From contig JAPLFD010000017.1 of assembly GCA_026390835.1 (NCBI GenBank), forward strand, positions 62,001 through 126,000: a stretch of 64,000 nucleotides of DNA, written 5' to 3'. Position 1 is the stretch's first letter. Every line of letters starts with the position of its first letter. Below are positions 27,260 to 30,297 of this stretch, piece after piece. The notes under the pieces were generated by a model. It did not search any database, was not told the origin of the DNA, and saw nothing but the letters and a program-made list of their open reading frames with translations. This stretch comes from Sphingobacteriales bacterium (lineage in GTDB: Bacteria > Bacteroidota > Bacteroidia > Sphingobacteriales > Sphingobacteriaceae). Made by a program: the position numbers and the translations under genes.

Positions 27260-27321
27260 GTTTTTGCAAACTTAATCTTTGCTTAACCTTAAGTTTAAGT
27301 GGGTATACTTTATTTGTAAGT

Positions 27322-27447
27322 ATGAGTATAGAATTCATTTTTACAAGCATTTGTTTGTTGGCTATTGTGCTATTTTGGTTTAGTCCCTTCGAAATTAAAG
27401 TAGAAGACGAGGCAGACGAATGTTTCTCTGAAACTTCAACACGATGA
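27322..27447 (+). CDS. Unrecognised 41-residue membrane protein coupled to an LpxH-like gene
   Basis: I do not recognise this protein. It has 41 residues: an N-terminal hydrophobic helix (SIEFIFTSICLLAIVLFWF) and an acidic tail (EIKVEDEADECFSE) with a single cysteine. It looks like a single-span inner-membrane peptide, tail probably cytoplasmic or periplasmic by an undetermined topology. The case for it being real: its stop overlaps the next start as ATGA, the pattern used by true gene pairs nearby, and a near-consensus box TTTATTTG ends 5 bases before its ATG. Otherwise it could be a leader peptide. Confidence 0.6.
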   Translation: MSIEFIFTSICLLAIVLFWFSPFEIKVEDEADECFSETSTR

Positions 27448-28289
27448 AGAAAAGAGCGGTTGACCTGGTAGTCATATCAGATGTGCACTTGGGCACTTAT
27501 GGCTGCCATTCTAAGGAATTGCTCAATTACTTAAAATCTATACAACCCAAAACACTAGTTCTAAACGGGGATATTATTGATATATGGCAGTTTAAAAAAT
27601 CGTATTGGCCAGAAAGCCACATGAAAGTTATTCGTCAAATTTTAAAATTTGTAAGCAATGGCGTACCGGTACATTACCTCACAGGCAACCACGACGAAAT
27701 GCTCCGGAAATTCGATGATTTTCACCTGGGGTCATTTAACATAAAAAACAAATTGGTTTTAGAATTGGGTGAAGAGCGTGCATGGATTTTTCATGGCGAT
27801 GTGTTTGATGTAACCATGCAATATTCAAAATGGTTAGCCAAGCTAGGCGCTATTGGCTACGATAGTTTGATTTTGCTAAATAGTTTTGTGAATTGGGTGC
27901 TCACTTTATTGAAAAGAGAAAAAATGAGTTTCTCTAAAAAGGTGAAAGCTAGTTTTAAAGATGCTATAAAGTTTATCAATAGTTTTGAGCAAACCGCTGC
28001 AGAATTGGCCATCGATAAAGGCTATCAGTTTGTTATTTGCGGCCATATTCATCAACCCGAAATAAGAACCATAACTACAGACAAGGGCGAAGTTACGTAT
28101 CTTAATTCTGGCGATTGGGTAGAAAATTTGAGCGCTTTAGAATATCATGATGGCGAATGGGCTATTTATAAATACGACCCCAAAAAATTTGCTGATAAGC
28201 ATCTAGAGGAAGATCCAGAGCTGGAAAATTTAGCATCGAAACTAGATGTAAAAATTTTGTTAGATCAAATGCGCTTTGAAGCGGTTTAA
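27444..28289 (+). CDS. Metallophosphoesterase, UDP-2,3-diacylglucosamine diphosphatase (LpxH-like)
   Basis: A 281-residue calcineurin-like phosphoesterase with the full metal-ligand set: SDVHLG (D13, H15), LNGDIIDIW, LTGNHDEMLR, WIFHGDVFD and CGHIHQPE. Bacteroidota proteins of this form are annotated as UDP-2,3-diacylglucosamine diphosphatase, which makes lipid X in lipid A synthesis at the inner membrane. It is longer than E. coli LpxH, so the exact substrate is not certain. It overlaps the 41-residue gene by 4 bases and is followed 12 bases later by a glycosyltransferase. Confidence 0.85.
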   Translation: MKKRAVDLVVISDVHLGTYGCHSKELLNYLKSIQPKTLVLNGDIIDIWQFKKSYWPESHMKVIRQILKFVSNGVPVHYLTGNHDEMLRKFDDFHLGSFNIKNKLVLELGEERAWIFHGDVFDVTMQYSKWLAKLGAIGYDSLILLNSFVNWVLTLLKREKMSFSKKVKASFKDAIKFINSFEQTAAELAIDKGYQFVICGHIHQPEIRTITTDKGEVTYLNSGDWVENLSALEYHDGEWAIYKYDPKKFADKHLEEDPELENLASKLDVKILLDQMRFEAV

Positions 28290-28301
28290 AAAATTTTATT
28301 T

Positions 28302-29297
28302 TTGAAAATTTTATTTGCCATACAAGGAACAGGCAATGGCCATATTAGCCGTGCTAAAGAAATATTGCCTTATTTGCAACAATACGGCCAAGTAGATGTG
28401 TTGATTAGCGGCACCCAAGCCGATGTTTTTTTAGAGCAACCCATCGCTTATCTATTGCATGGTTTTAGTTTCATTTTTGGCCAAAAAGGGGGGGTAGATA
28501 TTTTGGCAACCATAAAAAAAATGAAGCTTTTTAGGCTTATAGCCGATATTAAACAGCTACCTGTAAAAGACTACGATCTTGTTGTTAATGATTTTGAACC
28601 TATCAGCGCTTGGGCTTGCAAAATACGCAAAGTGCCCTGCATAGCGCTGAGTCATCAATCGGCTTTTCTTTCCCCAAAAACACCAAGACCAACTCAAAAA
28701 TCGGTTTGGGCGGAGCTCATTTTTAAGTATTATGCCCCATGCACCAACCGCTTGTCTTTTCATTTCAAATCGTACGATAATTACATTTACTCACCGGTAA
28801 TTCGTTCCGAAATACGGGAGTTGGAGCCAAAGGATTTGGGCCACATTACCGTTTACCTCCCTGCATATGCCGATGAATTTTTACTCACCTATTTTGAGCA
28901 ACTCCCGGAAGTGCGTTGGCAGGTTTTTTCGAAACATTGCACACAAGCCTATCAGCAAAACAATGTTTCTGTACGGCCAATTAGCAATACGGGCTTTAAC
29001 CAAAGTTTGGCCAATGCCCATGGTTTAATAACCGGTGGTGGTTTTGAGGGCCCAGCAGAAGCCTTATTTCTAGGTAAAAAATTACTACTTATCCCGATGA
29101 AAAATCAGTACGAGCAACAATGTAATGCCGCCGCTGCCGCTAAAATGGGCGTTCCAGTAATTCAGCGTATAGGCCCTGATTTTGTAGCACAACTTAAAGG
29201 CTGGTTGCAAAAGCCTTTTACGTTTAAGCCTAATTTTCCCGATCAAACAAAACAAATAGTAGCCGACCTCATCAAACGTTTCAGCAAAATATCTTAA
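28302..29297 (+). CDS. Glycosyltransferase, GT-B fold (MurG/UGT-like)
   Basis: A 331-residue GT-B enzyme. The N-terminus KILFAIQGTGNGHISRAKEILPYL has the GxGH loop typical of MurG-like glycolipid transferases. The C-terminal half holds ITGGGFEGPAEALFLGKKLLLIP and QYEQQCNAAAAAKMG, which bind the nucleotide sugar. It probably glycosylates a lipid or a lipid-linked acceptor, in keeping with the LpxH-like neighbour upstream. The start is TTG at 28302, the only codon giving the expected N-terminus. Confidence 0.84.
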   Translation: MKILFAIQGTGNGHISRAKEILPYLQQYGQVDVLISGTQADVFLEQPIAYLLHGFSFIFGQKGGVDILATIKKMKLFRLIADIKQLPVKDYDLVVNDFEPISAWACKIRKVPCIALSHQSAFLSPKTPRPTQKSVWAELIFKYYAPCTNRLSFHFKSYDNYIYSPVIRSEIRELEPKDLGHITVYLPAYADEFLLTYFEQLPEVRWQVFSKHCTQAYQQNNVSVRPISNTGFNQSLANAHGLITGGGFEGPAEALFLGKKLLLIPMKNQYEQQCNAAAAAKMGVPVIQRIGPDFVAQLKGWLQKPFTFKPNFPDQTKQIVADLIKRFSKIS

Positions 29298-29325: not shown

Positions 29326-30297
29326 ATGATTAAGCTATTTCGAACCTTTCACCCCTTAAGCGCATTGCCATTATTTGGCCTGGCCTTGTTTTTGCATTTA
29401 TTTAATCGGACTGAAATCGATACTAGCTTAGCGAATACGAGTGTTGTTCCACTCTATCGCCACCTGTTACTTCCCGCAGATAGTACTTTATTTTTACCCT
29501 TTGCAACTAGTAAATGGTTGGGTTTTATCCTCTTATTTTCTCAAGCCTTATTATTTAATAAGGTTATTAATACGCATAATTTATTAGGTAAACCCAGTTT
29601 TCTGCCGGGCTTACTTTATATCGTTTGTACGAGTTTTGCCGATACGCTTGGCGTATTTAGCCCCGTACTTTTAGTGAATTTTATACTAATTTGGTTATTA
29701 AACCAATTTTTGAGTAGCTACCGCAAAGCCGATGCCCGTGACTTAATTTTTGATATGGGCTTACTTATAGGCTTGGGCACTATTTTATATGCGCCTTTCA
29801 TTTTTTTCTTAGCCATTGTATGGCTAGGTCTGCTAATTTTTCGCTCATTTAATTGGCGTGAGTGGGCCATGGCAGTATTAGGACTAGCCACAGTCGCTTT
29901 TTTCTTGGCATTCTACTATTATTGGAATGGCGAATTGTCAAATTGGCTAAGCTATTGGCTACTAACACGAACCGTAAATCCGATAAGTCAACTGCCTTCA
30001 TTGGTTTTAATGGTGGTAGCTTTTATTGGTATTTTGGGGTTAATTCAGCTACGTGCAAATTTTTTTAGAAGCGTTGTTCACATTCGTAAATCTTTTCAAT
30101 TACTCTCTGTTTTATTTGGCATCGTTGTTTTGTCATCGGTACTTGCCTATGGCATTCAACTAAATCATTATATACTGGCAAGCGTGCCGCTTTCTGTATT
30201 GCTGGCCTATTATTTTATGCATGCAAGTAGAGCATGGGTATACGAGTCGCTTTTCATTTTGTTATTGGCTAGTGTGCTATATTTTCAATGGGTATAA
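29326..30297 (+). CDS. DUF6427 family polytopic membrane protein
   Basis: A 323-residue protein, very hydrophobic, with roughly nine to ten membrane helices starting at LSALPLFGLALFLHLF. It has no soluble domain and no recognised catalytic motif. It resembles the DUF6427 proteins of Bacteroidota, whose role is unknown. An in-frame TTG at 29305 would extend the protein by seven residues, but ATG at 29326 is preferred. It lies between the glycosyltransferase and purQ with short gaps. A GC-CTTTG box (29300-29307) is one mismatch from a promoter. Confidence 0.78.
   Translation: MIKLFRTFHPLSALPLFGLALFLHLFNRTEIDTSLANTSVVPLYRHLLLPADSTLFLPFATSKWLGFILLFSQALLFNKVINTHNLLGKPSFLPGLLYIVCTSFADTLGVFSPVLLVNFILIWLLNQFLSSYRKADARDLIFDMGLLIGLGTILYAPFIFFLAIVWLGLLIFRSFNWREWAMAVLGLATVAFFLAFYYYWNGELSNWLSYWLLTRTVNPISQLPSLVLMVVAFIGILGLIQLRANFFRSVVHIRKSFQLLSVLFGIVVLSSVLAYGIQLNHYILASVPLSVLLAYYFMHASRAWVYESLFILLLASVLYFQWV

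Follow-up and report, generated by a model that had tools for sequence, protein, structure and literature searches.

A 41-residue open reading frame (ORF), identified in a 64,000-nucleotide stretch of DNA hereafter called the window, is a genuine small membrane protein gene belonging to an uncatalogued family. Judged from its substitution pattern, the amino acid sequence is under purifying selection. The candidate role we favour, at a probability of roughly 0.45, is that of an accessory inner-membrane protein in a putative envelope-glycolipid pathway.

The small gene and its product

The following features were assigned to the small gene, all on the forward strand:

27322-27447 (+): small membrane protein gene, ATG to TGA, 41 amino acids; based on conservation, family alignment and substitution pattern
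27328-27381 (+): predicted membrane helix, residues 3-20; AlphaFold2 with a 41-row alignment
27382-27393 (+): SPFE motif, residues 21-24; family form [SGA]P[FY][ED], in 52 of 53 members counted
27403-27420 (+): acidic stretch EDEADE, residues 28-33; the tail is acidic across the family
27421-27447 (+): C-terminal extension CFSETSTR and stop codon; overlaps the next start, lineage-specific

The translated product is MSIEFIFTSICLLAIVLFWFSPFEIKVEDEADECFSETSTR. The single hydrophobic helix described in the initial annotation was recovered by AlphaFold2, with a mean pLDDT of 87 and 89 for the first two blocks of ten residues; the remainder beyond the helix was poorly determined (pLDDT 54-61). The same annotation described an acidic tail with one cysteine and a stop codon overlapping the next start as ATGA. 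The tail is indeed acidic and carries C34 (a further cysteine, C11, lies inside the helix), but a cysteine after the motif occurs in only 1 of 53 family members, that of the window, and is replaced by W in the nearest relative, G003. The overlap is likewise present, the stop at 27445-27447 sharing ATGA with the start of the LpxH-like gene at 27444, but it is not general. It is the CFSETSTR extension that brings the ORF to the overlap, and among the aligned sequences this extension was found only in the genome of the window (G000) and in G003, the proteins of G004 and G005 finishing in another short sequence. C34 and the ATGA overlap are both local traits.

Family distribution and selection

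When the sequence preceding the LpxH-like gene was first surveyed at 30 related loci, approximately half contained a small ORF with a hydrophobic stretch, an SPFE-like motif and an acidic end. A search profile built from 14 of these matched 186 of 301 family genomes (E 0.05), of which about six weak matches in other, longer frames resemble chance (G092, G154, G174, G257, G275 and G281). Named carriers include Pedobacter, Mucilaginibacter and Solitalea, from which we infer that the host family of the 301 genomes is Sphingobacteriaceae. When the search was extended to a class-wide sample of 198 genomes, six of them from this family, 23 matches were obtained at E 0.02; all four strong ones belong to Sphingobacteriaceae and the other 19 reached at most 25.1 bits.

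The loci examined yielded 55 distinct sequences, their start codons assigned by script. Removal of two doubtful ones, the first lying in a longer frame and the second lacking the motif, left 53. Lengths across the family range from 26 to 42 residues. The 53 sequences share a layout of one membrane helix followed by [SGA]P[FY][ED] and an acidic C-terminus; the one member departing from the motif has NHFE in its place, and the mean net charge from motif to C-terminus is -5.5. In G008 the LpxH-like gene is preceded by a more distant relative that lacks the motif. The initial annotation could place the protein in no family, and searches of Pfam, NCBIfam and PHROGs agreed, none of their families covering it. 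Individual members gave weak Pfam matches, OppC_N in 7 of 41 and YobH among the rest (best E 0.0059); these, and a match of the window ORF to UPF0239 (E 0.25), were judged to be chance. Nothing on this family appeared among the titles and abstract openings listed by literature searches on small proteins.

Purifying selection, for which the initial annotation had suggested a check, was evident in the pN/pS ratios. Values lay between 0.07 and 0.32 in the 60 pairs listed, of 98 pairs with at least 60% identity. For 14 equal-length close pairs, chosen by the authors from those 60, the pooled ratio was 0.15 when read in the coding frame, and rose to 1.03 and 2.20 when the frame was shifted. The small genes of the window and G003 differ by four synonymous and three non-synonymous changes.

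The upstream element

The near-consensus -7 box previously noted before the ATG was confirmed. The box, TTTATTTG, lies at 27309-27316 (+), ends five bases before the ATG, and has one mismatch, at the second base, to TAnnTTTG, the -7 consensus given in PMC9723704 and PMC6847099. The box recurs across upstream regions as one component of a conserved element:

27275-27320 (+): conserved promoter-like element; CTTAAC at 27282-27287, TTTG of the -7 box at 27313-27316; ranked first by the weight matrix

TAnnTTTG was present in 25 of 98 distinct upstream regions; across 200 base shuffles this count averaged 7.25 and peaked at 16. A weight matrix trained on 93 upstream regions, leaving out the genus of the window, gave an approximate consensus of CTTAAC-N7-TAA-N15-TTTG. 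The site in the window scored 18.8 bits, the highest in 64 kb on both strands (next best 9.1), and the element also ranked first in the stretches of G003 (22.5), G002 (13.6), G004 (14.7) and G005 (10.4). The distance from TTTG to the start codon is 14-19 bases in 69 of the 98 regions and five in the window, so the message there may be nearly leaderless; leaderless messages are reported to be uncommon in flavobacteria in PMC9723704 and PMC6847099.

Of ten distinct loci tested that have no small gene, five (L191, L210, L224, L012 and L016) carry the element ahead of the LpxH-like gene itself, with a score of at least 14 bits; L210 has a still better site elsewhere (21.1 vs 19.7). The element may therefore belong to the LpxH-like gene, or to the start of the transcription unit, no less than to the small gene. 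A dyad, TTAACA-N3-TGTTAA, was found at 7, 8 and 4 places in three genomes, compared with 0, 1 and 1 for a reversed control. A regulon was rejected; the 16 of 19 places that were read, which do not include that of the small gene itself in G306, had no obvious shared promoter arrangement, apart from a similarity between three of the places (L292, L300 and L302), each from a different genome.

Gene order and the neighbouring proteins

The usual gene order is YjjG-like, DinB-like, small gene, LpxH-like, glycosyltransferase, DUF6427, glutamine amidotransferase, CoaX-type pantothenate kinase, probable outer-membrane protein (below its Pfam cut-off), LptC-like and SurA-like. The glutamine amidotransferase matches GATase_5 and is presumably PurQ. 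The three genes that follow the small gene in the window are:

27444-28289 (+): LpxH-like metallophosphoesterase, 281 amino acids; Metallophos above cut-off
28302-29297 (+): glycosyltransferase, Glyco_trans_1_3 (PF13528, 113.1 bits, cut-off 25)
29326-30297 (+): DUF6427 protein, from ATG (PF19992, 38.9 bits, cut-off 25); predicted GT-C fold

The LpxH-like protein had been credited with making lipid X, a role that is now doubtful. It is a metallophosphoesterase, as is LpxH (UDP-2,3-diacylglucosamine diphosphatase), and phmmer matched it to solved LpxH chains (best E 3.2e-08). It differs from LpxH in falling below the cut-offs of both NCBIfam LpxH models (58.7 and 49.9 bits against 134 and 190.35) and in being outscored by a second protein of the same genome (92.7 and 79.4 bits over a 231-amino-acid stretch). 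As this better candidate is also below both cut-offs, these may be strict for the phylum. The glycosyltransferase resembles the MJ1255/VC2487 model TIGR00661 below its cut-off (160.7 vs 195.9 bits).

For DUF6427 the ORF list places the start at TTG 29305. Its predicted structure (pLDDT 86.9) gave two best VIA-align matches at Z 19.8 (rmsd 4.7 over 310 of the 323 residues and 4.3 over 305), and by title the 50 structural matches listed are enzymes, or GPI subunits resembling them, of what we take to be the GT-C class. Foldseek returned no match at E 0.001 (best 0.0041). On this model DUF6427 is predicted to have a GT-C membrane core, as a compact version of the fold. In the searched library, full-text search returned no paper on DUF6427 or DUF6341. 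Since DUF6427 models as a GT-C fold, the block would resemble one for envelope glycolipid synthesis; DUF6427, the glycosyltransferase and the LptC-like gene together suggest an envelope glycolipid or polysaccharide pathway.

Linkage was counted in the 80 best-matching named LpxH-like loci, of which the first 58 (66-76% identity) bear labels of Sphingobacteriaceae genera or of MAGs, with one Flavobacterium. In 52 of these 58 the small gene immediately precedes the LpxH-like gene on the same strand. Among the remaining 22 (60-69%), most of which carry Cytophagales or Flavobacteriia labels and one of which is a MAG labelled Pedobacter, no small gene above 12 bits was found, some of these loci having little upstream sequence. 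In 37 of the 52 loci a gap of 62-75 bases separates the small gene from the start of the LpxH-like alignment. The two genes overlap in six, all labelled Pedobacter, by 8 bases in three and by 2 bases in three; the latter are probably also 8, because the alignment starts at residue 3. No fusion of the small protein with a neighbour was found above 6.4 bits in the long ORFs scanned.

Separation of the small gene from its neighbours

Separations were read genome by genome. In G004, G029, G068 and G146 the small gene is directly beside DUF6427 and the LpxH-like gene is elsewhere. No LpxH-like match at E 1e-40 was found in G005, G007 or G031, which have only relatives of 23-26% identity; the small gene precedes DUF6427 in G005 (88% complete), and the glycosyltransferase and DUF6427 in G007 and G031 (99 and 100% complete). 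Conversely, G002 keeps the small gene with the LpxH-like gene and the glycosyltransferase and has a separate DUF6427 block without it, while in G011 it lies with the LpxH-like gene and the glycosyltransferase, and DUF6427 is approximately 19 kb away. The gene downstream of the small gene thus varies by genome between LpxH-like, glycosyltransferase and DUF6427. DUF6427 is nearby on the opposite strand in G027, and in G028 and G074 it is on a different contig of a fragmented assembly.

The LpxH-like gene is present in 265 of the 301 family genomes and the small gene in 186. Of 79 chosen genomes, 77 have DUF6427, many of them without the small gene. As many genomes with either neighbour lack it, the small gene is dispensable to both. 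It is strictly tied neither to the LpxH-like gene nor exclusively to DUF6427.

Several further arrangements were observed. The small gene is inverted relative to DUF6427 in G068 (L109:5144-5248) and co-directional with it in the congener G146 (L066). The LpxH-like/glycosyltransferase pair occupies a different, shared neighbourhood in G002 (L068) and G004 (L063), relatives of the genus of the window; the genes flanking the pair in G002 match RNase Y, Mpo1-like and GDPD families. Weak relatives of the small gene occur in other neighbourhoods at L110:5403-5531 (G090, 29.7 bits) and L111:5093-5200 (G099, 17.4 bits), the genes preceding that of G090 matching a GDSL-type hydrolase family and, below cut-off, a glycine-zipper family.

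Proposed role and alternative explanations

As an accessory protein of the pathway, the small protein would be encoded by the first gene of a transcription unit that would usually run on into the LpxH-like gene, the glycosyltransferase and often the GT-C-like DUF6427. Its helix would lie in the inner membrane with [SGA]P[FY][ED] at the boundary of that membrane, and the acidic C-terminal tail, short and probably cytoplasmic, would dock onto or tune one or more membrane enzymes of the pathway. In the lineage of the window the stop/start overlap may couple translation of the two genes, as a secondary trait rather than the purpose. The location of the C-terminus inside the cell is a weak and ambiguous topology guess, made because basic residues are rare N-terminally (2 of 53 members within the first eight positions) and present from the motif onward (23 of 53). 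An accessory role is favoured by the conservation and selection of the protein, the upstream element, the position ahead of the LpxH-like gene in 52 of 58 loci, the persistence of the small gene beside DUF6427, or ahead of the glycosyltransferase and DUF6427, where the LpxH-like gene is elsewhere or unmatched, the GT-C-like model of DUF6427, and the LptC-like and SurA-like genes in the same block. Against it count the mixed linkage, with G002 and G011 keeping the small gene away from DUF6427, the weak relatives in another neighbourhood in G090 and G099, the many genomes that have either neighbour but not the small gene, the lack of fusions in the ORFs scanned, and the upstream element ahead of the LpxH-like gene at loci that have no small gene.

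That same arrangement in G002 and G011 would suit a protein dedicated to anchoring the LpxH-like phosphoesterase in the membrane or to regulating it, as would the position directly upstream in 52 of 58 loci and the overlap in the window and in six of the 52. The partnership with the LpxH-like protein proposed initially is, in an exclusive form, weakened by the genomes in which the small gene persists without an LpxH-like match (G005, G007, G031) or apart from that gene (G004, G029, G068, G146), and a further 22 named LpxH-like loci showed no small gene above 12 bits; we regard a dedicated anchor as unlikely. Retention of the small gene when either neighbour is lost or moved could also mean that the protein functions independently, in a stress-, membrane- or insertase-related capacity, and is incidental to the block. 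The conserved upstream element and the weak relatives in other contexts in G090 and G099 are consistent with such a function, whereas adjacency to the same block in many genera, maintained beside DUF6427 even after local inversion in G068, is not readily explained by it, and we consider it somewhat improbable.

A translated leader controlling expression of the LpxH-like gene, also raised initially, would account for the position of the ORF as first gene after a promoter-like element and for the ATGA overlap in the lineage of the window. A leader peptide would be expected at a fixed position upstream of one gene and free of selection on its protein. Here the protein is under selection (pN/pS 0.15 in the coding frame), gaps of 62-75 bases separate the genes in 37 of 52 loci, and the small gene persists without or apart from the LpxH-like gene, ahead of other downstream genes and inverted in G068; a leader is accordingly very improbable. 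Short length alone would favour a chance ORF, an explanation to which we attach virtually no credence: it is refuted by the frame-specific substitution pattern, and the 186 matches in 301 genomes and the layout common to 53 sequences, which established the ORF as real, also count against it.

The family, with its conserved protein, upstream element and gene context, can be tested in culturable Pedobacter and Mucilaginibacter. It adds to the little-explored small membrane proteins of Bacteroidota and points to a possible envelope-glycolipid block comprising the LpxH-like, glycosyltransferase, GT-C-like DUF6427 and LptC-like genes.

Comparison with known small membrane proteins

DUF6341 (PF19868) is similarly small, with one hydrophobic stretch, and is found near DUF6427 in other Bacteroidota, lying within about 1 kb of it in 22 of the 34 genomes having DUF6341; in the other 12, DUF6427 was undetected (10) or on another contig (2). 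The placing of DUF6341 beside DUF6427 (L153-L172 and the DUF6427 places) parallels that of the small gene here. In those 22 genomes, however, DUF6341 is on the opposite strand to DUF6427, whereas the small gene is co-directional with DUF6427 in the genomes where the two adjoin (G004, G005, G029, G068 and G146), except in G068; in the window two genes lie between them. DUF6341 also has a longer N-terminal part and often YW after the helix. PF19868 did not match the window ORF up to E 1, nor anything in the genome of the window at E 0.001, and hhalign gave a probability of 5.3% over 8 columns, a comparison of low power with such very short profiles. Homology to DUF6341 is unsupported by profile comparison.

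Ost4 and Dpm3 are small single-helix accessory subunits of GT-C enzymes. No sequence relation to subunits of this type was found, no PDB sequence matching the family profile at E 1, but the small protein resembles them in size, in its single helix and in being encoded near a GT-C-like protein. A more specific proposal, which we consider a long shot, is that it is a dedicated regulatory subunit of a bacterial GT-C glycosyltransferase, DUF6427, and of the LpxH-like/glycosyltransferase pair in an undescribed envelope glycolipid pathway of Sphingobacteriaceae; if so, it would correspond, in bacteria, to the very small subunits of Ost4 or Dpm3 type.
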